Shown here in pieces: positions 355-63,174 of a DNA stretch of 64,000 bases (the stretch's first letter is position 1; each line of letters opens with the position of its first letter). A program made the translations under genes and the position numbers. The DNA comes from an uncultured Pelagibacteraceae bacterium (GTDB taxonomy: Bacteria > Pseudomonadota > Alphaproteobacteria > Pelagibacterales > Pelagibacteraceae): assembly GCA_902581695.1 (NCBI GenBank), contig CACHOW010000001.1:1-64000 (forward strand). Direction: 5' to 3'. Below the pieces are notes generated by a model, which worked only from the letters and a program-made list of their open reading frames with translations, ran no database searches and was not told the origin of the DNA.

Positions 355-1191
355 CTACTTGAAATATTTTTTCATTTTGCTTGAATTTACAATATTGAAA
401 CGTCTAATTTTAGTAATATAAAAAAAATGATTTATTTTATTTAAAATTTGAAATTTTTTTAAAAAATTTTTTATAATTTCTATTTTTGGGTTCTTTAACA
501 TTTTTTTTTTATAACCATATCTTAAATCCTCATGGTTATTTTTTTTTTTATTATTAGTGATAATTTTGTTAAACGCACATTGTTTTCTATCAACCTTGAA
601 AACCACAATACTTTCAAAAAATTCAATTGAATGAACATAATTATTTAAGGAAAATTTAAATTTTCCAATACCTGGAAATTTAAAGTTAATATCATCTATT
701 GTTTTTTTACAAAAATTTATAAAAGAATATTTGCTTGGATTGCCAAAATTAAAAAAATAGCTACACATGACATCTTCTGTAACCAAAATTCCTCCATCTT
801 TAATAAATGGTATACATGATATAGCAGTATTAATTTGTTGAGTGTTAGTGTGGCCTCCGTCATCAATTACTATATCCACATTTTGATGTTTATAAAAAAA
901 ATCTTTCCAAAATTCTCGTGAACTTTGGTCACCTATTTCTATAATAAAGCCATCTTTTTCAAATTTTTTACATTCAATATTCAAGTCTATCCCTATTATC
1001 TTTGCATGTGGAAATAGTTTTTGCCAAATAAAAAGGCTTCCACCATCTTTAACGCCTATTTCGACAACAGTTAAATCTTTTCTCAATTTATATTTTGATA
1101 AAATTAACTCATAAACATGAAAATATTTTTCAAGTTTCATTGAAAAATATTTACTTTCTTCAAAGTATTTTTTAATTATATTACTCATCAT
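355..1191 (-). CDS. Class I SAM-dependent methyltransferase (CmcI / cephalosporin-hydroxylase-like fold)
   Basis: 'TVVEIGVKDGGSLFIWQKLFPHAKIIGIDLNIE' SAM motif I and 'VDIVIDDGGHTNTQQ' motif. Confidence 0.75.
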   Translation of the reverse strand: MMSNIIKKYFEESKYFSMKLEKYFHVYELILSKYKLRKDLTVVEIGVKDGGSLFIWQKLFPHAKIIGIDLNIECKKFEKDGFIIEIGDQSSREFWKDFFYKHQNVDIVIDDGGHTNTQQINTAISCIPFIKDGGILVTEDVMCSYFFNFGNPSKYSFINFCKKTIDDINFKFPGIGKFKFSLNNYVHSIEFFESIVVFKVDRKQCAFNKIITNNKKKNNHEDLRYGYKKKMLKNPKIEIIKNFLKKFQILNKINHFFYITKIRRFNIVNSSKMKKYFK

Positions 1192-1205: not shown

Positions 1206-2690
1206 TTAGTAATTATTTTTCAAACATTTAATCAAATAGTTTGTAACTTGAACATTATTAAGCCCTTCCGGTATAGAAGTTTCACATTGTATGTTATTTT
1301 TAATTAAACTAAAAATTTGTCTTCTATTTCCATATTTAGCTTCTGAAATTTTTGACATTTCCCAACTGTGATCTGATTGAAATATTACCATGGCATCTTT
1401 ATCTAATTTATCAATTATTTCCATTATACTTGTTATATTTTTAATTACACACAAATAAGAATTCTTATAACCCTCAAAATTTGTGTTTCCTGGAAAATAT
1501 TTATAATTACATTGTTCATCATGTTTATAAGGCCAGTGAGGGTGCATATGATGGATAAAGTAAAAAGTTGATTTTGTTTCAATGTATTCTTTGTTTGAAA
1601 TTAAAAATTTTTTAAGTTTTCCAATTGCATCACCACGTTGATTTATTTTCAAATATTTTTGAATAATATTCTGCTCAGTTATTTTATTAAAAATTTGTAA
1701 GAGTGGTGATTTTTTCAAAAAAGCTTGTAGAAGATATAAATCTATATATTCTTCTTTTTTATCTGATAGACAATATCTATAATTATATCTTGAACAACCT
1801 GCAAAACTATTGCCAATCCATTTAAACTCATATCCCAGTTTATTCAGTTCAGAAATTAATACAGGGTTATATTTTTTACTTAGTAGCTTAGGAAACCTTT
1901 GATAAATATTTTTTTTTAAATTATCAGCTTCATAATTGTCATCTTTTACATAAATCTTATCTAAAAAAAATAGGGATGTTAGTACATCCTGTGTATAAGG
2001 ATAGAAATTAAGAGTATCGTTAAAGTATATGTATTTTTTTTGATTATAAAAATTTTCAAATTTTGTTAAGTCTTTTTGGTAAAAATCTTTAAATTCGTTG
2101 AGTGGCATCATAGCATCTAGGATAAAGAAATAAATATTTGGTCTTTTAACATTCTTGATAAGACTTACTTTGTTTTCTTTAGTATAATCATTTTTTTCTT
2201 GAGAAAAAAATTCTTTACTAAATTGAGCTATAGAGAAAAAAAGATTAAAGGTTAAAAAAAATAGAAAAAATATTGTATAAATCTTTTTTTTTTGAATAAG
2301 TTTAAAAAAAAGATAAACAAATAATAATATAATAATTAATGCAATTTCAGAACTGTACTCATATGACATGTTTGTATTTTGAAAAAAAACTTTAGCTTTA
2401 TTATTTAAAAAGTTATGTTGAAATAAAGTCCATATAGAAATCAAAATAAATGTAATTAAAGAATATTCTTTTAAAGAAAGAAAATTTTTTAAGATAAAAT
2501 AAATCGAAAATATCAAAAGAAAATATAAAGATAATAAAATGACAAAGTTATCATTAAATATAAAATCTAATTCATTAAAGTTAGAGTTAATAAATTCAAT
2601 CCACGGAATAAGACTTAATGATAAAAGAACTACTGTTAAAATAATATTTTGAAAATACTTATTGAAATTTGTTATCTTTAATATATTCAT
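1206..2690 (-). CDS. Membrane protein with C-terminal sulfatase / alkaline-phosphatase-fold domain (LtaS/EptA-like phospho- or sulfo-transferase)
   Basis: Several N-terminal TM segments; 'RPNIYFFILDAMMP', 'YPYTQDVLTSLF' (candidate Thr nucleophile), 'FIHHMHPHWPY' and 'MVIFQSDHSW' metal-site motifs. Confidence 0.65.
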   Translation of the reverse strand: MNILKITNFNKYFQNIILTVVLLSLSLIPWIEFINSNFNELDFIFNDNFVILLSLYFLLIFSIYFILKNFLSLKEYSLITFILISIWTLFQHNFLNNKAKVFFQNTNMSYEYSSEIALIIILLFVYLFFKLIQKKKIYTIFFLFFLTFNLFFSIAQFSKEFFSQEKNDYTKENKVSLIKNVKRPNIYFFILDAMMPLNEFKDFYQKDLTKFENFYNQKKYIYFNDTLNFYPYTQDVLTSLFFLDKIYVKDDNYEADNLKKNIYQRFPKLLSKKYNPVLISELNKLGYEFKWIGNSFAGCSRYNYRYCLSDKKEEYIDLYLLQAFLKKSPLLQIFNKITEQNIIQKYLKINQRGDAIGKLKKFLISNKEYIETKSTFYFIHHMHPHWPYKHDEQCNYKYFPGNTNFEGYKNSYLCVIKNITSIMEIIDKLDKDAMVIFQSDHSWEMSKISEAKYGNRRQIFSLIKNNIQCETSIPEGLNNVQVTNYLIKCLKNNY

Positions 2691-2696
2691 CTGATA

Positions 2697-2927
2697 ATGA
2701 AAAAAACTTTAATTTATTTAACCTCAAATATTATAGCAATTTTTTTAATTGTTACTAATGCTTATGCCTATCTAGATCCAGGCACTGGTAGCTTTATTCT
2801 TCAGGCAATCATTGGATTTTTAGCAGCTTTATCTGCTGGTTTTTTATATTATTGGACAAAAGTAAAAAATTTTTTCTTAAAATTTTTTAAGAAAAATAAT
2901 AATGATGAAAAAACTGACAATAGATGA
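2697..2927 (+). CDS. Small secreted/membrane protein with YLDPGTGS motif
   Basis: 76 aa: signal-peptide-like N-terminus 'MKKTLIYLTSNIIAIFLIVTNAYA', then 'YLDPGTGSFILQAIIGFLAALSAGFLYYW' and a basic tail. Confidence 0.75.
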   Translation: MKKTLIYLTSNIIAIFLIVTNAYAYLDPGTGSFILQAIIGFLAALSAGFLYYWTKVKNFFLKFFKKNNNDEKTDNR

Positions 2928-4293
2928 GGGATCATTTAGAGATCCAGACGCTAGAGTAGCCTATTTAAATAATTCTGTTTATAGAATTGTATATCCAAAT
3001 GGATTTGAGAAATTCGATTTTATTAAAAGAATTTTAGAAAATAAATCAATTTCTGAATACCTAATTGAAACAGAGGAGGTTAGTCAGCAAGAAGTTAAAT
3101 TACTGGAATTAGATATTGATACAAATTTTAAGGTATTTAAGCATAAAAAAATCGATTATATTTCTTACCCATACGAATGGAGTTTCCATAGATTAAAAGA
3201 TGCCGCTCTTCATCATCTTAATTTGCATATTAATCTTCTTAAAAATGATGCAACATTAATTGATGCATATAGTTATAATATTCAATTCAACAATTATTCA
3301 CCAATTTTTATAGATTTAATGTCAATAAAAAAATATTCAGAAGGGGAATTCTGGGTAGGTCATAAACAATTTTGTGAAAGTTTTTTAAACCCATTAGTTT
3401 TAAAATCAAAATTAGGAGTAAATTATAATAATTGGTTCAAAGGGAATTTAGAGGGTATCAATACAGGTGAATTATCGAAATTACTTAAATTTAGACATAT
3501 GTTTTCGTGGAATATTTTTTATAACATATTTCTTTTAGATTATTTTGAAAAAAAATATAAAAAAAATGAGGATTTGAAGATAACAAAAAATAAGAAATTA
3601 AAAAAAAATTACTATTTATCAATTTTATCTAATTTAGTTAATTTTATAGGGAGTTTAAAACCTAAAAAAGAAAGAAGTATTTGGGGAGAGTATTCGAGAG
3701 ATAATACTTATGACAATGAAGAAAAAAAAAATAAGCATGAATTCATTTCAAATTATTTTAATAAAACCAAATTCAATAGAGTTTTAGATCTGGGTTGTAA
3801 TAACGGAGAATACTCCAAACTAGCACTAAATTCAGGTTGTAAAAGTGTAATTGGTCTTGATTACGATTTAAATGCTATTGACGAAGCTTATTTAATTTCT
3901 AAAAGAGAAAAACTAAATTTTTTACCTTTATATTTTGATGTTTCTAACCCAAGCTCAAATATTGGATGGCGTCAAAAAGAACGAAAAGGATTTATAGAAA
4001 GATTAAATTTTGATACAGTATTAGCTCTTGCATTTGAACACCATTTAGCAATTGCTAAGAATATACCGTTAGAGGATGTAATAAATTGGATAACTTCATT
4101 AGCACCCAAAGGTATAATAGAGTTTGTTCCTAAAAATGATGTAACGATACAATCTATGATGAGATTAAAAGGTGATATTTTTCCAAATTACAATCTTGAA
4201 AATTTTAAAAGACTACTATCAAATAAGACAAAAATAACTTCAGAAAAAATTGTTAGCAAATCAGGTAGGACCTTATTTTGTTTTGAAAAATAA
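2902..4293 (+). CDS. Class I SAM-dependent methyltransferase (NoeA-like architecture)
   Basis: 463 aa; SAM motif 'RVLDLGCNNGEYSKLALNSGCKSVIGLDYD'; overlaps the upstream gene by 26 bp. Confidence 0.7.
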   Translation: MMKKLTIDEGSFRDPDARVAYLNNSVYRIVYPNGFEKFDFIKRILENKSISEYLIETEEVSQQEVKLLELDIDTNFKVFKHKKIDYISYPYEWSFHRLKDAALHHLNLHINLLKNDATLIDAYSYNIQFNNYSPIFIDLMSIKKYSEGEFWVGHKQFCESFLNPLVLKSKLGVNYNNWFKGNLEGINTGELSKLLKFRHMFSWNIFYNIFLLDYFEKKYKKNEDLKITKNKKLKKNYYLSILSNLVNFIGSLKPKKERSIWGEYSRDNTYDNEEKKNKHEFISNYFNKTKFNRVLDLGCNNGEYSKLALNSGCKSVIGLDYDLNAIDEAYLISKREKLNFLPLYFDVSNPSSNIGWRQKERKGFIERLNFDTVLALAFEHHLAIAKNIPLEDVINWITSLAPKGIIEFVPKNDVTIQSMMRLKGDIFPNYNLENFKRLLSNKTKITSEKIVSKSGRTLFCFEK

Positions 4294-4406: not shown

Positions 4407-5372
4407 ATGAATAAAATTTTGATAACTGGAGTCGCTGGTTTTATAGGCTTTTCTTTAGCAAGAAAGATCTTAAGGAATAAAAATACTGAAATCGTAGGGA
4501 TAGATAATTTAAATTTATATTATAGTAAAAATTTGAAGTTAAAAAGACTTAGTATTTTAAAAAAAAATAAAAATTTTAAATTTTTAAAAGTTGATCTAAC
4601 AGATAGAAAAAAATTAATTAAGATATTTGAGAGTCAAAAATTTAATTGTGTCTTTAATTTAGCAGCTCAGGCTGGTGTTCGTTATTCATATGAAAACCCC
4701 AAGTCCTATACAGACTCAAATATAATAGGATTTATTAATTTGGTTGAATTTATAAAAACTTTTAAAGTAAAAAAATTTATTTTTGCATCATCTAGCTCGG
4801 TTTATGGTGATCAAAAACCATTTCCCAAATTAGAACAATCTGAGTTGAATCCAATAAATCTTTATTCTTTATCAAAGTTATCCAATGAACAATTTGCAAG
4901 ATCAATGAGCAAAAGCATGAATACAAAGTTTGTTGGTTTAAGATTTTTTACAATTTATGGACCGTGGGGAAGACCTGATATGCTTATAATAAAATATTTA
5001 ATTGCTTCCACAAAAAAAATAAAATTTTTACTTTATAATAAAGGAGATCACTATAGAGATTTTACATACATTGATGATGCAGTAAATATTTGTGAATCAT
5101 TAGTGAAAATGAATTTAAAAAAAAAATACGATATTTTCAATATCTGTTCTTCTAAACCTTTGTTGATTACAAAAGTGCTTAATGAAGTTAACAAATATTC
5201 AAAAAGTCCTTTTGTAATCAAAAAACCTAGAGACAAAGCCGATGTATACAAAACTTATGGCGATAATAAAAAGATAAGAATTTTTTTAGGGAAAAAAATA
5301 AGCTTTACAAACTTTAAATTTGGTATCAAGGAAACTTGTAAATGGTATTTTAAAAATTATAAGTTGTTTTAA
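4407..5372 (+). CDS. NAD-dependent epimerase/dehydratase (UDP-glucuronate 4-epimerase-like)
   Basis: 'ITGVAGFIGFSLARKIL' Rossmann motif; SSSSVYGD and Y-S-L-S-K catalytic motif; 'GLRFFTIYGPWGRPDM'. Confidence 0.85.
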   Translation: MNKILITGVAGFIGFSLARKILRNKNTEIVGIDNLNLYYSKNLKLKRLSILKKNKNFKFLKVDLTDRKKLIKIFESQKFNCVFNLAAQAGVRYSYENPKSYTDSNIIGFINLVEFIKTFKVKKFIFASSSSVYGDQKPFPKLEQSELNPINLYSLSKLSNEQFARSMSKSMNTKFVGLRFFTIYGPWGRPDMLIIKYLIASTKKIKFLLYNKGDHYRDFTYIDDAVNICESLVKMNLKKKYDIFNICSSKPLLITKVLNEVNKYSKSPFVIKKPRDKADVYKTYGDNKKIRIFLGKKISFTNFKFGIKETCKWYFKNYKLF

Positions 5373-6454
5373 ATTTTTTTTGAAAAAAAAATTATTTTTT
5401 TACAACGATTTTCCCAACTGAATTTTTTGGCAGTAGCTAAAGCGTTTCTTTTTAATTTATATTTTTTTCTATAATTTTTAAATAACTTTTGAATATTTTG
5501 TGACCAAAGGGCGTCATTATTAACTTTAATTAAGACACAATTATAATTATTTTTTAAAATATGTTTATAAACTTTTAAATCAGATGCGACTATAATCATT
5601 TTAGCAGCAAGATAATCAAACATTTTTAGAGGTGACATGTATTTTTCTAACCAAATTGAGCTGCGACCTTTAACTTTATTTTGATAAGGCATTAAGGCAA
5701 TTTCATATTTAGACAAAATACTAGGTATTTTATTATAACTTATAAAATCAAAGACTTTTATATTCTTTAATATTTGGTGTGTATTTAAAAATTTTTTATC
5801 TCCATAGAGATGAAAGTTTATATTTTTGTTTAATTTTGCAAGTCTAAAAATTTGCTCGATACCTTTACCCTCAAAAAAACTGCCAATATAAACGCAAGTT
5901 TTTTTATATTTTAGACCCTGTTTAACTTTGAAGTCTTCTAAATTGACAGCATCATCTAAAACTAAATATTTTTCCTTTTCAATTTTATAAATGTGATTGA
6001 GGTTTTTATTTAAAAATATAAATTTTAAATCATTGATTAAATTTAAATTTTTAAAAAAAAAATACATTATTTTTGAAAATCCTGTTATTTCATGATGTAG
6101 TTCTAGAATTACTTTTTTTTTAAAAAGGCAGGCAAGTAAAGAAAAAATTATACTTCTTGAAAGAAAAATACATTCCTTATCAAATTTTTTTGAAAGAATT
6201 TTTAAAGAAAATTTAATTCGTAGGATGAAATTAAGTAATACAAAACTATCAAATATTGAAAAAACTTTAAATTTGTATTTTATATTATATTTTTTATTAA
6301 CTTGATTAATATTTTTGTTATTTATAACAAATAAATTGATATCATATTTGAGTTTTGAAAATGCTTCACACATTTTCATCACATGAATAGAGTATGCAGA
6401 TTTACTTGGAAGATTTAATTCTGCAATATAATAAATTTTTTTTCTTTCTTGCAT
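5369..6454 (-). CDS. Glycosyltransferase (GT4-like)
   Basis: 'CVYIGSFFEGKGIEQIFRLAKLN' and 'SPLKMFDYLAAKMIIVASDLKVYKHIL' GT-B motifs. Confidence 0.8.
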   Translation of the reverse strand: MQERKKIYYIAELNLPSKSAYSIHVMKMCEAFSKLKYDINLFVINNKNINQVNKKYNIKYKFKVFSIFDSFVLLNFILRIKFSLKILSKKFDKECIFLSRSIIFSLLACLFKKKVILELHHEITGFSKIMYFFFKNLNLINDLKFIFLNKNLNHIYKIEKEKYLVLDDAVNLEDFKVKQGLKYKKTCVYIGSFFEGKGIEQIFRLAKLNKNINFHLYGDKKFLNTHQILKNIKVFDFISYNKIPSILSKYEIALMPYQNKVKGRSSIWLEKYMSPLKMFDYLAAKMIIVASDLKVYKHILKNNYNCVLIKVNNDALWSQNIQKLFKNYRKKYKLKRNALATAKKFSWENRCKKIIFFSKKI

Positions 6455-6494
6455 ATTTTTTTAAGAACTAACTAATTTAGTGTATTTTTTTCAA

Positions 6495-6505
6495 CCCCCC
6501 CCCCC
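6495..6505. repeat. Homopolymer C11 tract (G11 on the minus strand)
   Basis: Direct read: 'ttcaaCCCCCCCCCCCtccaacc' in an otherwise very AT-rich intergenic region, about 41 bp upstream of the minus-strand GT start codon. Confidence 0.95.
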
Positions 6506-6647
6506 TCCAACCATAGGGACGAAGAGTAATACGTTTTTTTTTAATCATTATTTTTGGTTCAAAATAGCTTAATTTCTTGAAATTAATTATCAGAATTTAT
6601 TAAAATTAACATCTTTTAATATAAAAATTAAAGTTATAAATATAATA

Positions 6648-6908
6648 ATGAGCTTTCAAAGATTTTTTGAAAAAAAAATTGGTCCAAATAGAAAATTTGT
6701 GAAAAAATTGAAAAGTTTTTCCAAAAAGGCTGGTTTAAATTTAGAAAATTGGGAACGATATCCAATATACAAACAAGTAAAAAATGCGTCATATCTAATC
6801 TTAGAAATGATGATAGTTGATCTAGAATATGGTTTTATAGAAGTCTTAAGGCTGAAAAAAAACTTCCTGTACAAGTTTGGGCAATTGCCAAAAAAGATTA
6901 AAATATAG
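6648..6908 (+). pseudogene. Probable degenerate gene remnant (frameshift plus in-frame stop)
   Basis: ORF begins 'MSFQRFFEKKIGPNRKFVKKLKSFSKKAGLNLENWERYPIYKQVKNASYL'. The downstream part looks more protein-like in another frame: 'SNLRNDDS*SRIWFYRSLKAEKKLPVQVWAIAKKD*'. Confidence 0.45.
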
Positions 6909-6911
6909 AAA

Positions 6912-7652
6912 ATGGATTTAATAAGCGTAATCATCCCTTATTTTAAAAAGAAAAAATTTATTGAGGAAGCTGTAAATTCAATTCTCAATCAATCTTATAC
7001 AAACATTGAAATATTAATTGTATATGATGACAAGGATGTTGATGACTTGAATTATCTAAATGAAATTTTTAATTTAAATAAAAAGATAAGAATTATTGTT
7101 AACGAAAAAAATATCGGTGCTGGTTTATCTAGAAACAAAGGTATTTCTCTTGCAAATGGAAAATACATTGGCTTTTTGGATGCAGATGATTATTGGCATC
7201 AAGAAAAAGTTTTTAAACAAATTCAATTTATGAAAGAAAATAATTTTAAGGCGTCACACACATCATATCAAATAATTGATGAAAAGAAGAATATTTTAGA
7301 TGTGAGAAGGGCAAGAGGGTTTAATAGTTATAAGGATATAATAAAGTCATGTGACATTGGATTATCTACAGTGATTATTGAAAAATCAATTATAAAAGAC
7401 GATATAAAGTTTGTAGAGTTAAAAACTAAAGAAGATTTTGTTTTATGGTTAAAAATATTATATTCAGGAATTGCTATTGGGGCATTGGATGAAAATCTAA
7501 CATTTTGGAGAAAACTTGAAAACTCTCTATCAAGTTCTTTCTTTCAAAAAATGATTGACGGATATAGAGTTTATAGAAAATACATGAAATTTAACAGTTT
7601 ATTATCATTGTATCTTCTTTTGTGTCTTTCAATTAATTTCCTCAGAAAATAA
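6912..7652 (+). CDS. Glycosyltransferase family 2
   Basis: 'ISVIIPYFKKKKFIEEAVNSILNQSYTNIEILIVYDD' and 'GKYIGFLDADDYW' GT-A motifs. Confidence 0.93.
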   Translation: MDLISVIIPYFKKKKFIEEAVNSILNQSYTNIEILIVYDDKDVDDLNYLNEIFNLNKKIRIIVNEKNIGAGLSRNKGISLANGKYIGFLDADDYWHQEKVFKQIQFMKENNFKASHTSYQIIDEKKNILDVRRARGFNSYKDIIKSCDIGLSTVIIEKSIIKDDIKFVELKTKEDFVLWLKILYSGIAIGALDENLTFWRKLENSLSSSFFQKMIDGYRVYRKYMKFNSLLSLYLLLCLSINFLRK

Positions 7653-8675
7653 ATGGTAGAAAATTTTATATTTTTTGTTTTTGCATTAGCATTAACTTAT
7701 ATAGCAAATAGAAAAAATTTATTTCCAAATTTTACAGGCGATATTCATCAAAAATTTTTCAATGAAAAAAAAATACCCCTTATTGGAGGAGTTTTAGTTT
7801 TAGTTACATTATTAAGATTTTACTATGCACACGATTATTTTATTAACTTAGTATTTTTGAGCATATTTTTAATAGGTTTTTTTTCAGACTCTAAAATTTT
7901 ATCTTCACCCAGATTAAGACTCTATCTACAGTTGTTAATTACGATATTTTTTGTCCTTTATTTTAAAATAGAAGTTACCCCAACAAAATTAAATTTTTTT
8001 GATAATTTACTACAGAACCATTATTTAAGTTATTCATTCACAATTTTCTGTTTTATGATTTTGATCAATGGATCAAACTTTATTGATGGTTTAAATGGTC
8101 TTTTATTAGGATATATCTTGTTAATATTTTTTGCTTTAACAACAAACAATCTAATTTTATTTTCAGGACTAGATGAATTAGCAATAAATTATTTATTTTA
8201 CTCTTTAATTTTAATAATTGTTTTAAATTATTCTAATTTTTTATATCTAGGAGATAGTGGAGCATATTTGTTAGGTTTGTTCACTGGATATATTTTGATA
8301 ACAATTTATAATTCACCTGCAATAGTTTCACCTTATTATATAATTTTATTATTATGGTATCCATGTTTTGAAAACTTATTTTCTCTATTAAGAAAATTTT
8401 TGAATTCTAAATCACCAGTAAAACCTGATAATAGACATTTACATCAAATAATATTCTTATTTTTAAAATATAAATTTAAATCTAAAAATATTCTTCTGAT
8501 AAATATCATTTCAAGTTTGATGATAAATTTTTATAATTTAGTTATTTTTTTTATAGCTTCAAAAAATCCTAATTTAACAATTCTGCAATTAAAACTGATA
8601 TTAGTAAGTATCTTTATTTATTGCATTTTGTATTATATTTTGAATAAAAGAATTCATTTATTTATTAAAAAATAA
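7653..8675 (+). CDS. MraY/WecA-like polyprenyl-phosphate sugar-1-phosphate transferase
   Basis: Polytopic; 'NGSNFIDGLNGLLLGY', 'LGDSGAYLLG' and 'PDNRHLHQ' family motifs. Confidence 0.88.
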   Translation: MVENFIFFVFALALTYIANRKNLFPNFTGDIHQKFFNEKKIPLIGGVLVLVTLLRFYYAHDYFINLVFLSIFLIGFFSDSKILSSPRLRLYLQLLITIFFVLYFKIEVTPTKLNFFDNLLQNHYLSYSFTIFCFMILINGSNFIDGLNGLLLGYILLIFFALTTNNLILFSGLDELAINYLFYSLILIIVLNYSNFLYLGDSGAYLLGLFTGYILITIYNSPAIVSPYYIILLLWYPCFENLFSLLRKFLNSKSPVKPDNRHLHQIIFLFLKYKFKSKNILLINIISSLMINFYNLVIFFIASKNPNLTILQLKLILVSIFIYCILYYILNKRIHLFIKK

Positions 8676-9326
8676 TCTGACCATCGCGAGAAGTATGAGA
8701 AATCCATCTTTAAATGCATTTACCTTTTTTTTCCCACCAATTCTTGATCTTTCATAAGCTTTAGAATTTGCTAATTTATAACCTTTCCTTTTTGCTTTGA
8801 TTGGTAACTCAACACAAAATTTGAAATCTTTAGATTTTAAATTTAAATCTTTAGCTTTAGATGTTTTTCCTAAGACGTAAGTGTATAAAATGTCAGTAAT
8901 ATTAAGATTAAAAAATAATTTTCCAATTTTGGTAAATATATAGTTGCCAATTAAAGTTATAATAGTGTCATCATCACTTCCACAATCTTTTTCGTATCTA
9001 GTTCCAAAAATAAAATCAGCTTTAGTTGTGTTAATTTGCTCATGCATTTTAATTAACTCGTTCGGATTGAATGATCCATCTGCATTAAATATACAAAATA
9101 ATTCTGTATCCACTGAATTAATACCAGTAATTAATGCATCACCATAACCCTTCCCATGTTGAAATACAATTCTACAATTATGGTTTTTTGTAGATTGAAT
9201 TGTTTCTTCATCCTCTTTTTCCAAAACAATCAAAATTTTTAAATCGTAGTTTTTTAACTCATCCAATACTTTAGGGAGAGACTCTTTTTCATTTTTTGCA
9301 GGAATTATTAATGTGAGATTATTCAT
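8658..9326 (-). CDS. Glycosyltransferase family 2 (dolichol-phosphate mannosyltransferase-like)
   Basis: 'LTLIIPAKNEKESLPKVLDEL' and 'ELFCIFNADGSFNPNEL'. Confidence 0.85.
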   Translation of the reverse strand: MNNLTLIIPAKNEKESLPKVLDELKNYDLKILIVLEKEDEETIQSTKNHNCRIVFQHGKGYGDALITGINSVDTELFCIFNADGSFNPNELIKMHEQINTTKADFIFGTRYEKDCGSDDDTIITLIGNYIFTKIGKLFFNLNITDILYTYVLGKTSKAKDLNLKSKDFKFCVELPIKAKRKGYKLANSKAYERSRIGGKKKVNAFKDGFLILLAMVRLFFNK

Positions 9327-9464
9327 AAATACTTTAATTATTTATAATTTTTTTATGTTAATAATGGTAAATTTGACTTATCTTAAAATATTTACTTTTT
9401 ATATAGAATTCTTCAATAATTTTTTTTTGATAATATTAATTAAAAAAAATAGAGTAATATATTA

Positions 9465-11129
9465 ATGAATTTTACAATTTATCTATTATCTTACTTTATA
9501 ATCATAATATCAGTAATTGGATATGGTTTACTATTTCAAAACACTTTAAGAAATATTATAGACATAGAATTTGAGTATAACTTGATTGGAAGTTTACTTT
9601 TTTTGATATTTCTATCATTTCTTACTCACTTTTTTTTTAATCATGGATATATTCATAATACGATCATTTTACTAATAGGATTAATTTCATATATATTTTT
9701 TTATTTTAAAGAAAAAAAAATATTTAAAAGATATTCAAAATATCTTTTTTTTATATTTGGAATACTCACGATTGCACTACTAACATCTAAAACTCATGAT
9801 GATTTTCCTTATTATCATTTTCCCTACACTTATTATTTAACTCAAGAAAATTTAATAATTGGAATGGGAAATCTTGTTCACGGTTTCAGAACTCCGTCAT
9901 CAATTTTTTATTTAAATTCGTTGTTTTATCTACCAGTTATTGAATATTTTTTATTTAATTTGGGGGTAATTCTAATATTTGGATTTTCTAATTTAATCTT
10001 AATTTTTAAATTAAAAAATGACTACAAAAATAAAAGATATGATTTTATTTTTTTTTTAACTCTTTTGTCTTTTTTATTTATAAATATATTTTTTTATAGA
10101 ATAGCTGAACATGGAACAGATCGTTCTGCACAAATACTGATTCTTATTTTGTTTATTGAAGTTTTTAGTTTATATAGAAAATCTGCAATTATAGAAAAAC
10201 TTTTTTCTAAAATTTTTATTTTATTAGGTCTGATAATTACACTTAAAGCTTTTTACGTTTTGTATTTATTAATACTTATTCCTGTATTTTTTCATTTTAG
10301 AAAAAATAATTTATTTTTAAGTTTTTTTAAAAATTTTTATTTCTTTCTTTTTTGTTCTGTTGGTTTACTTTTGATGCTCATAAATATTTTTAATTCAGGT
10401 TGTATTTTGTATCCTGTGAACATTACTTGTTTTTCTAATTTTGAGTGGTCATTGTTTAATGAGGCAAAATCATCAAATGATTGGTATGAACAATGGGCCA
10501 AGGCTGGAGCTGGGCCAAACCATTTAGTTGATAACCCTGAAAACTACATTAAAGGATTTAATTGGTTAGCAAATTGGATTGACATGTATTTTTTTAATAA
10601 AGTTAGTGATTTTATAATTGGTTTACTTATTTTATTATTAATAGTTAATTTTACATTTAAATCAAAAAACAAAAATAATATAAAAATAAAAAAACAAAAT
10701 TACTTAGTTTATTCAATAATTATTATTTTGTTTTTTGAATGGTTTTATAACCACCCAAGTCTTAGATATGGAGGTTTTAGTCTTATTGCGTTAATTTTAT
10801 TTATACCATTCTCAATATACATCTCAAAATTTATCTCAATCAAATATTTCAAAGAGAAAATTATTTTTTTGATTGTATTATCTTTGGTCATTTTTGTTGG
10901 AAGAAATGCAAACAGAATTCATAACGAGGTTAAAAAATATAATTATCATTTATTTTCATACCCATATTATTATTTAGATAAAGTCCATTTTAGAGTAGAT
11001 ACGTTTGTAAATAGAATATTGGTAAATTACCAAAATTGTATGGACGAAAATAAAATAAATTGTGAACGTTTTGAGGGAATATCCGTTTCTAAAAAAAATA
11101 TTTACTATATCTTAAAAAAGTATAAATGA
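9465..11129 (+). CDS. Polytopic membrane protein, candidate GT-C-type glycosyltransferase
   Basis: About 12 hydrophobic segments; acidic loop motif 'KTHDDFPYYHFPYTYYLTQ' after an early TM, as in polyprenyl-phosphate-dependent GT-C enzymes. Confidence 0.55.
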   Translation: MNFTIYLLSYFIIIISVIGYGLLFQNTLRNIIDIEFEYNLIGSLLFLIFLSFLTHFFFNHGYIHNTIILLIGLISYIFFYFKEKKIFKRYSKYLFFIFGILTIALLTSKTHDDFPYYHFPYTYYLTQENLIIGMGNLVHGFRTPSSIFYLNSLFYLPVIEYFLFNLGVILIFGFSNLILIFKLKNDYKNKRYDFIFFLTLLSFLFINIFFYRIAEHGTDRSAQILILILFIEVFSLYRKSAIIEKLFSKIFILLGLIITLKAFYVLYLLILIPVFFHFRKNNLFLSFFKNFYFFLFCSVGLLLMLINIFNSGCILYPVNITCFSNFEWSLFNEAKSSNDWYEQWAKAGAGPNHLVDNPENYIKGFNWLANWIDMYFFNKVSDFIIGLLILLLIVNFTFKSKNKNNIKIKKQNYLVYSIIIILFFEWFYNHPSLRYGGFSLIALILFIPFSIYISKFISIKYFKEKIIFLIVLSLVIFVGRNANRIHNEVKKYNYHLFSYPYYYLDKVHFRVDTFVNRILVNYQNCMDENKINCERFEGISVSKKNIYYILKKYK

Positions 11130-11179
11130 TTATATTCATATTAAGAACACTTTTTAATTAAAAAATAAATTTTTAAAAA

Positions 11180-12226
11180 ATGAAAAAAAAAGTTGCTTTA
11201 ATATTTGGTATTACTGGTCAAGATGGATCTTACTTGGCTGAAATATTGTTGAAAAAAAAATATATAGTGCATGGAGTAAAAAGAAGATCTTCAAGTATAA
11301 ATACTCTCAGAGTGGACCACATCTACCAAGATCCTCATGATAGAAATTATAGATTTAGACTTCATTATGGTGATGTTACAGACTCTTTATCTGTTTCAAA
11401 CATTATAAAAAAAACGAGACCTCATGAAATATATAATTTAGCAGCTCAATCTCATGTAGCGGTTTCATTTGAAGTCCCAGAGTATACTGCCAATGCTGAT
11501 GCATTAGGTGCTCTTAGAATTTTAGAGGCAATAAAATTTCACAAACTAGAAAAAAAAACAAAATTTTATCAGGCAGGTACTTCAGAAATGTATGGCAAAG
11601 TTCAAAGTTCACCTCAAAATGAAAAAACTTCTTTTTATCCTTTAAGTCCTTATGGAGTTGCAAAATTATATGCTCATTGGATTACAAAAAATTATAGAGA
11701 AGCTTATGAAATTTTTGCTTGTAATGGAATTTTATTTAATCATGAAAGTCCAAGAAGAGGAGAAACGTTTGTTACAAAAAAAATTATTTCTGCCCTTTGT
11801 AAGATTAAAGAAGGAAAGCAAAAAAAATTATTTTTGGGAAATTTAAATTCAAAAAGGGATTGGGGACATGCCAAAGATTATTGTTATGCAATGTGGAAAA
11901 TGCTTCAGCAAAAAAAACCTGATGATTATGTTATAGCAACGGGCAAACAGTACTCAATTAAACAATTTATAAACTTAACAGCAAAAAAATTGAATATGAA
12001 AGTTATTTGGAAAGGAAAAGGGATAAAAGAAAAAGGTTATAATGAATTTGGGTTTCCTATAATTGAATGTGATAAAAACTATTTTAGACCATTAGATGTA
12101 GATACACTTTTAGGTGACGCAAAAAAAGCTAGAAAATTACTTAAATGGAAACCTAAAAATGACATTAATTTATTAATTAATGAAATGATTGAGTCTGAAT
12201 ATAAAATTTTAAATGCAGTTAAATAA
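11180..12226 (+). CDS. gmd: GDP-mannose 4,6-dehydratase
   Basis: '[19 protein letters not shown]', '[22 protein letters not shown]', '[14 protein letters not shown]', '[12 protein letters not shown]', '[16 protein letters not shown]'. Confidence 0.96.
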
Positions 12227-13154
12227 GAAAAGTAAAATATTCATTGCTGGACATAATGGCATGGTTGGTTCATCAGTAGTGAGACATTTTAAAAAAAAAG
12301 GCTATAAAAAATTATTTTTCAAAAATCGAAAATCTCTAGACTTAACAGATCAAAAAAAAACACATTCTTACATAAAAAAAATAAAACCAGATTTTGTTAT
12401 AATTGCTGCAGCAAAAGTGGGTGGGATATTTGCTAATAATGAGCAGAAGGCTAAATTTATTTATGAAAATATTATGATACAAACTAATTTAATCCATTCA
12501 TCTTATTTAACTGGAGTAAAAAAACTTATTTTTTTAGGATCAAGCTGTATCTATCCTAAATATTCAAAACAACCAATTAAAGAAGATTATCTAATGACAG
12601 GAAAACTTGAAGAGACCAATGACTCTTATGCTATTGCCAAGATAGCAGGATATAAAATGTGTGAAGCTTATAATAAACAATATAAAACAAATTATGTATG
12701 TTTAATGCCTACAAACCTTTACGGACCAAATGATAATTATGATTTGAAGAATTCTCATTTTTTTTCTGCTTTAATTGCAAAAATACATTTCGCATTAAAA
12801 AAAAAAACCAAAATGATTAAAATTTGGGGAGACGGCTCTCCGAAAAGAGAATTAATGTATGTTGATGATCTAGCAGATGCTTGTGAATTTTTTTTAAAAA
12901 AAAAGACAAAACATTCATTAATTAATATTGGCAGTGGAGAAGAAAAAACAATCTTAGGGTATTGTAAATTTGTTATAAAGAAATTAGATGTTAATATAAA
13001 GATAAAGTTTGAAATAAAAAAACCAAATGGAACTCCGAGAAAAAAACTAGATCTTAGTTTAGCAAATAAGTATGGATGGAAATCAAAATATAATTTAAAT
13101 AAAGGTTTTAATTTAACCTATCAAGACTATCTAAAAAAGATTGGTAATAAATAA
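12213..13154 (+). CDS. fcl: GDP-L-fucose synthase
   Basis: '[17 protein letters not shown]', '[23 protein letters not shown]', '[19 protein letters not shown]', '[12 protein letters not shown]'; overlaps gmd by 14 bp. Confidence 0.96.
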
Positions 13155-13157
13155 AAA

Positions 13158-14045
13158 ATGAAAAAATTTATTATTGTTACTGGAGGCTGTGGTTTTGTTG
13201 GAAGTAATTTGATAAAATATTTAATCAAAAAATCTTCTTATAATATTATTAGCTTAGATGATTATTCTTCTGGAACTAGAAAAAATCATATTAAAGATAA
13301 AAGAGCAGTATATATTAAAGGCAATACCAAAGATATTGATTATATTTTAAGAAAATATGTTGGTAAAATTCACTCAATTTTCCATTTTGGGGAATTTTCA
13401 AGAATTTACCAAAGCTTTTTACAAATGAACAAATGCATACAATCTAATTCAATTGGAACAAATGCTGTTTTTGACTTTTGTCTAAAAAATAAGATTAAAT
13501 TAATTTATTCAGCGACTTCTGCATCTTTGGGTAATAAGGGAAAGGATAAAAACCTTTCTCCATATGCATTTACAAAAGCTAAAAATTTAGAGCTTTTAGA
13601 GAACTTGAGACGATGGTTTAATTTTAAATATGAAGTAATTTTTTTTTACAATGTTTACGGCCCAGGTCAGATTAAAAAAGGGAATATGTCAACTGTGATA
13701 GGAATATTTGAGGATTGTTATTTAAAAAATTTACCTTTACCGGTGGTAAAACCTGGATCTCAATCTAGAAGATTTACGCACATCACAGACACTATTAAAG
13801 TTTGTTATAAAGCTTGGAAAAACAACAAATCACGATTTTATAGTATTTCAAATAGAGAGAGTTTTACCATTTTAGAAGTTGCAAAAATGTTTGGAAAAAA
13901 GATAAAATTTTTACCTCAGAGAAAAGGTGAAAGATATGCATCCGCCCTAACTACCTTAAGTTTATCAAATAAGATTTATAGAACTTACGGCAAAATAAAT
14001 TTAAAAAATTATGTTAATGACTTTGTGAAAAATACTAGAAAATAG
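13158..14045 (+). CDS. NAD-dependent epimerase/dehydratase
   Basis: 'VTGGCGFVGSNLIKYL', 'YSATSASLG', Y-A-F-T-K, 'FYNVYGPGQ'. Confidence 0.88.
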   Translation: MKKFIIVTGGCGFVGSNLIKYLIKKSSYNIISLDDYSSGTRKNHIKDKRAVYIKGNTKDIDYILRKYVGKIHSIFHFGEFSRIYQSFLQMNKCIQSNSIGTNAVFDFCLKNKIKLIYSATSASLGNKGKDKNLSPYAFTKAKNLELLENLRRWFNFKYEVIFFYNVYGPGQIKKGNMSTVIGIFEDCYLKNLPLPVVKPGSQSRRFTHITDTIKVCYKAWKNNKSRFYSISNRESFTILEVAKMFGKKIKFLPQRKGERYASALTTLSLSNKIYRTYGKINLKNYVNDFVKNTRK

Positions 14046-14102: not shown

Positions 14103-14218
14103 CGCCGGTGATTATTGCGAAAGTGTTACACCCGATCCCATTTCGAACTCGGAAGTTAAGCCTTTCAGCGCCGATGGTACTTTGTCTTAAGACACGGGAG
14201 AGTAGGTCATTGCCGGCA
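14103..14218 (+). rRNA. rrf: 5S ribosomal RNA
   Basis: 'ACACCCGATCCCATTTCGAACTCGGAAGTTAAGC...GCCGATGGTACT...GGGAGAGTAGGTC' core; terminal stem GCCGGTGA / TCATTGCCGGC closes the ends. Confidence 0.95.
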
Positions 14219-14355: not shown

Positions 14356-14360
14356 TTTTT

Positions 14361-14471
14361 ATGGATAACGAAAACCATAAAAATACTTGGAACAACTTCA
14401 CTAAATTTGTATTGTGGGGAACTGTCGCTGTTATCCTAGTTTTAATATTAATGGCAATATTCTTGTTGTAG
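14361..14471 (+). CDS. Small single-TM protein, aa3-type cytochrome c oxidase subunit IV-like (not in the ORF track)
   Basis: 36 aa MDNENHKNTWNNFTKFVLWGTVAVILVLILMAIFLL, resembles the bacterial COX4_pro family. Confidence 0.7.
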   Translation: MDNENHKNTWNNFTKFVLWGTVAVILVLILMAIFLL

Positions 14472-14482
14472 ACTAATCAACT

Positions 14483-15571
14483 ATGAAAATTGTTTCTTTA
14501 TCTGAAAATTTAAATATAGAAAAAAGAATTGCTATAACTCCTGATATAGCAAAAAAATATAAATCCTTGGGTTTTGAAGTTATGCTTCCTAAAGATTATG
14601 GTCTTCATTTAGGTTTTGATAATGATCATTATAAATCTCAGGGAGTGAATATTATAGAGAACGAGAAAGATCTTTTGGTTGATAGTGATGTAATTTTACA
14701 ATTAGGATTACTATCAGATGAAAACCTTTCCTCATTAAGAGAGAATCAAAATTTAATTGGAGTTTTAAACCCATTTACAAATAAGGAAAAATTACAAGAT
14801 TTATTAAAAAAAAAAGTAAACAGTTTTTCTTTGGAATTATTACCTAGAATAACAAGAGCTCAATCTATGGATATTCTTTCTTCTCAAGCAAATCTGGCAG
14901 GGTATAAAGCTGTAATAGAATCATTTGCTTGTTTCGAAAAAGCTATACCAATGATGATGACAGCCGCTGGGACTGTTCCAGCAGCAAAGGTTCTAGTAGT
15001 AGGTGCTGGTGTTGCTGGTCTACAAGCTATAGCAACTGCCAAAAGAATGGGAGCAATTGTTTTTGCTACGGATGTTAGAATGGCCTCTAAGGAACAAGTT
15101 GAAAGTTTAGGGGGTAAGTTTTTAACGGTAGAGGGTTCTGAAAATCTTGAAACTGAAGGTGGTTATGCTAAAGAAGCCTCAGAAGATTTTAAGCAAAAAC
15201 AAGAAGACTTATTAAGTGAAACATTAAAAAAAATAGATATTGTAATCTGCACAGCTTTAATACCGGGCAAAAAAGCTCCAGTGATAATTAAAGAAAATAT
15301 GATTAAAAATATGCAAATAGGATCTGTAATTTATGACTTGGCTGCTGTTCAAGGAGGAAATACAGCATACACAGAAGTTGATAAATTAATTGATAGAAAT
15401 GGTGTTAAAATTATGGGAGAGATGAATATTCTTAATAAGCTTCCAATTTCTGCTTCTTCCTTATACTCAAAAAATTTATTTAATTTTGTTTCAAATTTAT
15501 TAGATAAAAAGACTGGTAAAATTAATATTAATTTAGAGGACGAGATAATCGATAAAACCTTGGTTAAATAG
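14483..15571 (+). CDS. pntAA: NAD(P) transhydrogenase subunit alpha part 1
   Basis: 'EKRIAITPDIAKKYKSLGFEV', 'PRITRAQSMDILSSQANLAGYKAV', 'VVGAGVAGLQAIATAKRMGA'. Confidence 0.95.
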   Translation: MKIVSLSENLNIEKRIAITPDIAKKYKSLGFEVMLPKDYGLHLGFDNDHYKSQGVNIIENEKDLLVDSDVILQLGLLSDENLSSLRENQNLIGVLNPFTNKEKLQDLLKKKVNSFSLELLPRITRAQSMDILSSQANLAGYKAVIESFACFEKAIPMMMTAAGTVPAAKVLVVGAGVAGLQAIATAKRMGAIVFATDVRMASKEQVESLGGKFLTVEGSENLETEGGYAKEASEDFKQKQEDLLSETLKKIDIVICTALIPGKKAPVIIKENMIKNMQIGSVIYDLAAVQGGNTAYTEVDKLIDRNGVKIMGEMNILNKLPISASSLYSKNLFNFVSNLLDKKTGKININLEDEIIDKTLVK

Positions 15572-62837: not shown

Positions 62838-62873
62838 AGAATGATAAAGATTTTTGCATAAAATTAAAATTAA

Positions 62874-63118
62874 GGGGCGTTCTGTTGCCAGGTGCCCCAA
62901 ACCCCGTTTACTTAATTAACAAAGTTAATTAAGCAGCAAGTGCGTAACTTTCGTTAGCAATTATAAATTAGCCCGTTACGGTGGAACAATTCCGAACGAA
63001 AGAATAACTTTTAGTCATCCGTCGAATCTAGTTCACCCCCATAAGTTGTAAATGGTGGAGGTGGTGGGTACTGCCCCCACGTCCGCAATGGTTATTACGA
63101 AATTCGTTTATCGTCGTA
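62874..63118 (-). ncRNA. ssrA: Permuted two-piece tmRNA: coding piece about 62874-63040, 12-nt spacer 63041-63052, acceptor piece 63053 to about 63118
   Basis: Minus strand: tag frame GCT AAC GAA AGT TAC GCA CTT GCT GCT TAA (62958-62929) = ANESYALAA*; 'AGATTCGACGG' tmRNA 5' signature; acceptor stem GGGGGTG (63040-63034) pairs with CACCTCC-A-CCA (63063-63053), which lies upstream in the transcript, i.e. circular permutation; 'GCGGACGTGGG' matches the 3' tRNA-like domain. Confidence 0.93.
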
Positions 63119-63174
63119 GTTGGCAAGCCAACAGTATTAATATAAAAGCAATTAAAAGAGATTCAATAAAAATC

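Follow-up and report, generated by a model that had tools for sequence, protein, structure and literature searches.

Background

The window analysed here, a 64,000-nucleotide stretch from an uncultured Pelagibacteraceae bacterium (contig CACHOW010000001.1, positions 1 to 64,000), carries near its start three neighbouring genes, for a membrane enzyme, a tiny protein and a methyltransferase, and raises the question of whether they form one functional unit and which reaction such a unit would carry out. A preliminary description regarded them as a candidate dedicated unit for the modification of envelope polysaccharides. We propose, with slightly less than even confidence, that the trio is a module of the noeA-noeB type together with a near-constant small partner, and that it would act on a surface or secreted glycan. 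Since 1995 noeA and noeB have counted among the host-range genes for Medicago, and to date their descriptions go no further than a hypothesised role in modifying Nod factors. The NoeA-NoeB linkage (published in 2022) and the kinase-methyltransferase architecture are already in the literature (PMC9758233). Three points appear to be new: that NoeA almost always comes with a small subunit, that this subunit has other partners as well, and that the active-site residues form a pattern suggestive of a methyl-phosphate product like that of WbdD.

Locus structure and genomic setting

All three open reading frames were found as previously described. The small gene (2697–2927, plus strand) encodes 76 aa and overlaps by 26 bp the gene for a 463-aa protein (2902–4293, plus strand), while a 494-aa membrane protein is encoded head-to-head with them (1206–2690, minus strand). 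The start codons of the two divergent genes are separated by 6 bp (window 2688–2699), so that promoters or ribosome-binding sites do not fit between them; the same divergent 6-bp arrangement occurs in the closest relative (locus L063). A Methyltransf_24/CmcI-like methyltransferase gene (355–1191, minus strand) lies 14 bp downstream of the gene for the membrane protein, on the same strand, and is a possible operon partner of it; this gene was not seen in L063.

The region from 4407 to 14045 is occupied by surface-polysaccharide genes (nucleotide-sugar epimerases/dehydratases, glycosyltransferases and a Glycos_transf_4 protein), followed by a 5S rRNA gene identified with Rfam (14104–14218, plus strand) at which the HVR2 island of SAR11 ends. 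HVR2 is the largest hypervariable region of SAR11, is flanked by the 23S and 5S genes and contains mainly cell-surface genes (PMC2217521). As the nearest relatives of the window module belong to the Pelagibacteraceae (L063, 83% identity), we place it near the 5S edge of this island. The gene for the 463-aa protein is accessory within the family, being present in 7 of 247 Pelagibacteraceae genomes (the window's own counted).

A phage origin of the module was considered and dropped: viral contigs and phage genomes contained no homologue of the 463-aa protein. An AT-rich, SAR11-like module with 54% identity was also observed on a contig labelled as an Acidimicrobiaceae MAG (L064); the label is doubtful and the contig is probably mis-binned. 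Other features of the window include a permuted tmRNA gene of the alphaproteobacterial type (62871–63170, minus strand) and a match to RF01810, the pntA sRNA family (14357–14418), just upstream of a pntA-like gene at 14483.

Homology to noeA-noeB and the Legionella homologues

Homology of the 463-aa protein to S. meliloti NoeA extends over 98% of its length, with 40% identity and an E-value of about 1e-105. In the S. meliloti pSymA record the gene order is nodL, an unnamed 71-aa ORF, noeA and noeB. The 71-aa ORF (locus L040, 5748–5960) reads MPIIMSVVGFLILSIVPAHAYLDPGTGSMLVQ..., is of the YLDPGTGS type and overlaps the start of noeA by 23 bp, and S. meliloti NoeB is a Pfam Sulfatase-family protein. 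The homology to NoeA and this gene order together identify the trio in the window as the noeA-noeB module plus a small gene, one that is unnamed in the usual description of nodL-noeA-noeB as a three-gene operon.

Full-length homology, the kinase residues and methyltransferase domain described below, as well as the NoeB-like neighbour, also place the 463-aa protein in the NoeA/Lani_1194 family. For this family, the kinase-methyltransferase architecture has been described with the Legionella protein Lani_1194, as has an alkaline-phosphatase fold for NoeB/Lani_1195; among 816 neighbourhoods, Lani_1193 and Lani_1195 were conserved neighbours in 65% and 38%, respectively (PMC9758233). Judging from the gene order, Lani_1193, whose nature the main text of that paper leaves unstated, is probably the YLDPGTGS protein. 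Lani_1193, 1194 and 1195 were all predicted to be effectors (PMC9758233), and one could suppose by extension that the module proteins are secreted effectors in general. We regard this as barely plausible: conservation of the module extends to free-living SAR11, Planctomycetota, Chloroflexota and Nitrospirota, TM helices occur both in the NoeB-like protein (as a bundle) and in the small protein (one segment, besides a signal peptide), and in the window the module is situated within a surface-polysaccharide island. Modification of an envelope glycan, as originally suggested, is well supported by both context and homology.

The NoeA-like kinase-methyltransferase

The 463-aa protein consists of an N-terminal kinase-like domain (about residues 1–250) and a C-terminal class I SAM methyltransferase domain (about 260–463); its first naming as a methyltransferase was thus correct for the C-terminal half and missed the kinase-like one. 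The AlphaFold model of the protein (pLDDT 92.6) displays in the kinase half a strand-loop-strand-strand-Asp arrangement, as would be expected for the catalytic loop of a kinase. R28, D121-x4-N126 and D138 are kept in 63/63 NoeA-type sequences, and the equivalent residues have been assigned to the kinase site of a family homologue (PMC9758233). A profile search of the kinase half against the PDB returned no match, and no kinase was found among the 50 Foldseek matches listed for the full-length model.

Of the residues in the methyltransferase half, Y264, H380 and H381 are present in all 63 sequences and R456 in 62, with one gap. In WbdD, methylation of the sugar phosphate depends on each of Y16, H132, H133 and R203 (PMC3482155). 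Counted along each protein, the spacing from the Tyr to the first His is 116 in both the NoeA-like protein and WbdD, and that from the first His to the Arg is 71 and 76, respectively. A profile of the methyltransferase domain matched WbdD weakly (E 7.5e-4), while a profile restricted to the later part of this domain, where the His pair lies, gave no match to WbdD, and for this reason the correspondence of residues is only suggestive; the His pair is present in further methyltransferases too (e.g., NodS, RebM). As a pattern of residues, the active site suggests that NoeA could make a WbdD-like methyl-phosphate product. In favour of such a product, the 7SK methylphosphate capping enzyme came 2nd and WbdD 13th in the Foldseek ranking of PDB matches, amid many class I methyltransferases.

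It is also conceivable, if unlikely in our estimation, that the glycan is modified without any methyl phosphate, the kinase-like domain only binding substrate or nucleotide and the methyltransferase acting on a sugar hydroxyl, amine or carboxyl. The fold matches would be in line with this, as the top ones are generic class I methyltransferases, the Nod-factor N-methyltransferase NodS included; so would the missing profile match to solved kinases and the helix alpha-C glutamate, which is not identifiable in the NoeA family (PMC9758233). On the other hand, the putative catalytic and metal residues of the kinase are invariant, unlike those of a decayed pseudokinase, and the Y/HH/R set resembles that of the phosphate-methylating WbdD.

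The NoeB-like alkaline-phosphatase-fold enzyme

The 494-aa protein reaches the curated cut-off of the Pfam Sulfatase family (25 bits), and its conserved residues, structural model and Foldseek matches agree with a NoeB-like protein. D192, T233, H380, H385 and D440 are conserved, H441 mostly so, and a Thr is found at position 233 in 89% of homologues. The model, of moderate confidence (pLDDT 76), combines an N-terminal TM bundle with an alkaline-phosphatase-fold domain, for which the best Foldseek matches were PbgA, MCR-1 and other phosphoethanolamine transferases (EptA), with LtaP and sulfatases lower. The structural hallmarks of the MCR/EptA/LtaS enzymes (TM bundle, alkaline-phosphatase fold, Thr nucleophile, Asp/His ligand pattern) are all found in it. 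A formylglycine-type sulfatase was rejected, as a Thr nucleophile replaces the Cys/Ser of C/S-x-P-x-R. With Thr and not formylglycine at the nucleophile position, phosphoryl chemistry is more likely than sulfate chemistry, and the modelled protein is likelier to be a phosphoryl-handling membrane enzyme of the alkaline-phosphatase superfamily. What had been called a sulfatase-fold membrane enzyme is accordingly still a membrane enzyme of that superfamily, now specified as NoeB-like and with the Thr nucleophile of phosphotransferases.

The small protein and its linkage to noeA across genomes

The signal peptide of the small protein in the window ends in AYA, and the mature protein starts with YLDPGTGSFILQ, followed by one TM segment and a basic tail, in agreement with what had been read from this ORF at the outset. 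Among 79 small-protein sequences Tyr-1, Asp-3 and Gln-12 are invariant, P4 is found in 71 and S8 in 72. In 78 of them Tyr-1 directly follows a signal-peptidase site of the AxA type; the tail, predicted to be cytosolic, is variable. A hydrophobic segment followed by a basic tail is expected to give an N-out, C-in topology, and the YLDPGTGS end is thus predicted to be periplasmic and the basic tail cytosolic. No Pfam or NCBIfam family matched the protein, and the YLDPGTGS motif was not found printed in the literature searched.

An alignment of NoeA-type sequences was scanned against about 85,000 species genomes; the 80 loci used here have the highest scores within a larger set. They include Alpha- and Gammaproteobacteria, Acidobacteria, Planctomycetota, Nitrospirota, Chloroflexota (Anaerolineales, Dehalococcoidia), Zixibacteria, Binatia, a cyanobacterial MAG and others. 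By profile, the small gene adjoins the noeA-like gene in 79/80 of these best-scoring loci (counted, like all loci here, without phylogenetic weighting, and with adjacency profiles built partly from related loci), the sole exception being a contig that begins at the noeA-like gene itself (L107). When the small-protein profile was run on the 14,152 stop-to-stop ORFs of the 80 loci, 80 matches had E < 1e-8 (one beside noeA in each of the 79 loci and a second copy in L065) and one more fell between 1e-8 and 1. The strong matches being nearly confined to positions beside noeA, the association of the small ORF is not a chance one. At 78 junctions measured between the two genes, 49 overlap and 25 are spaced by 0–30 nt. 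Further surveys, with genomes partly shared with the first set, found the small gene in nearly all NoeA-like loci, Planctomycetota and Chloroflexota included, where often only a few residues of the protein precede the motif and where the gene is sometimes downstream of noeA. In these surveys it was undetected in L165, L183, L185 and L211; of these, L183 and L185 match NoeA weakly or in part. In L173 the contig ends.

An alkaline-phosphatase-fold gene is present in 65/80 of the best-scoring loci, mostly directly adjacent, and the other 15 had none in the stretch examined; in Acidobacteriota and Chloroflexota, for example, noeA retains the adjacent small gene in loci where no NoeB-like gene is detected. 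The co-occurrence predicted for the three families is thus real, and the idea of a dedicated module holds in full for the small protein, a near-obligate partner of NoeA, and in part for the alkaline-phosphatase-fold enzyme, which is frequent and not obligate. The latter gene is on the noeA strand in 61/65 loci, which makes the head-to-head order of the window, correctly recognised beforehand, an exception.

In two Rhizobiales loci (L132 3163–5452, L082 3193–5491) the module was observed to diverge from genes for a Wzm/Wzt O-antigen ABC transporter, with no NoeB-like gene nearby, a setting closer to that of WbdD. A Wzm/Wzt neighbour as a general rule was rejected: a profile for which these two loci served as seed found the transporter in only 2/80.

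Other partners of the small protein

Searches for the small protein by class and phylum gave 21 strong matches outside the window, of which 16 lie beside a NoeA-like gene, 4 accompany a PF04464 glycerophosphotransferase-like enzyme and 1 neither; weak matches of the YLGPGVGG type (L034, L038) have different neighbours and were excluded. The 4 PF04464 partners are within 4 kb of the small protein and one is fused to it (L031 8633–9931, minus strand), as is the enzyme of a weaker match (L036 8851–10209, minus strand), the YLDPGTGS segment and TM helix forming the enzyme N-terminus in both. One SAR11 locus (L065 3970–7383) contains two YLDPGTGS genes head-to-head, one beside an alkaline-phosphatase-fold gene and the other beside a noeA-like gene. 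The fusions and this two-copy locus suggest that the small protein may be a membrane adaptor serving several phospho-enzymes.

Alternatively, the small protein could be a subunit of the NoeB-like enzyme or of a channel for a lipid substrate, its link to noeA being mere operon structure. Its conserved end is predicted to be periplasmic, where the NoeB catalytic domain lies, and an alkaline-phosphatase-fold gene is usual in the PF04464-type loci with the small protein (4/5, in the stretch examined); we nonetheless consider this quite unlikely, as the small gene stays beside noeA where a NoeB-like gene is undetectable, and as it is fused to cytosolic-type enzymes, with no fusion to a NoeB-like protein seen in the same locus set. 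That the small protein is itself the peptide substrate of the kinase-methyltransferase would account for the translational coupling and the nearly one-to-one linkage, yet seems very improbable with an invariant end predicted outside, away from the cytosolic enzyme, a variable cytosolic tail, a Nod-factor host range linked to noeA/noeB and the occurrence of the small gene with PF04464 enzymes.

Extending the adaptor reading, we tentatively entertain, at rather less than even confidence, that the YLDPGTGS peptide is the tiny-adaptor core of widespread, undescribed envelope phosphoryl-modification machines, in which it would couple interchangeable cytosolic phospho-enzymes (NoeA or PF04464, sometimes fused) to a periplasmic alkaline-phosphatase-fold transferase, and that it is also an overlooked fourth gene of nodL-noeA-noeB.

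Proposed reaction

The genes, their joint conservation, the conserved residues and the fold models have been shown above; what follows on substrate, order of reactions, product, adaptor role and topology is inferred. The cytosolic kinase domain of the NoeA-like protein would phosphorylate a hydroxyl of a lipid-linked or free glycan, and its methyltransferase domain would then methylate this phosphate to give a methyl-phosphate group, as WbdD does. The single-pass YLDPGTGS adaptor would hold the soluble NoeA-like enzyme at the inner membrane with its YLDPGTGS end facing the periplasm, on which side the NoeB-like enzyme may use its Thr either to transfer or to hydrolyse a phosphoryl group, acting on the modified glycan or on a phospholipid that serves as donor.

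In this way a specific, testable reaction (sugar phosphorylation, then methylation of the sugar phosphate) is proposed for noeA/noeB, and the noeA-noeB module, present in many phyla and in a SAR11 surface-polysaccharide island as well, gains a small gene. If true, the enzymes that make glycan methyl phosphates would gain a further family, and the tiny membrane adaptors would constitute a new one.

Comparison with known systems

The S. meliloti nodL-noeA-noeB operon (host-range genes of nod box n5) shares with the window a full-length NoeA homologue, a NoeB-like gene and an overlapping YLDPGTGS ORF, whereas the window has no nodL or nod context, belongs to a marine SAR11 surface-polysaccharide island and has its NoeB-like gene head-to-head where that of S. 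meliloti is downstream. Lani_1194 and Lani_1195 resemble the window proteins in the kinase-then-methyltransferase order, the same catalytic residues and the alkaline-phosphatase-fold neighbour; the main text of PMC9758233 treats the Lani genes as possible effectors and gives no description of the YLDPGTGS protein, its motif, its near-obligate linkage or its PF04464 partners. MCR-1/EptA, LtaS/LtaP and PbgA have the TM bundle, fold, Thr nucleophile and Asp/His metal pattern of the NoeB-like protein, but the identity in fold alignments is only 10–16%, and the NoeB-like gene is linked to noeA.

WbdD of E. coli O9a and ORF6 of K. pneumoniae O7 are likewise encoded at glycan loci and contain a kinase as well as a methyltransferase in a single protein; ORF6, an unrelated kinase-methyltransferase, also makes a methyl-phosphate glycan terminus (PMC11231755). 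The order in WbdD is methyltransferase, kinase and coiled coil, whereas in the window protein the kinase comes first, no coiled coil is present, the kinase half is unrelated by profile to the WbdD-type one, and a small membrane partner is found instead. With its kinase first and no coiled coil, the 463-aa protein is not a WbdD, though it may work like one.
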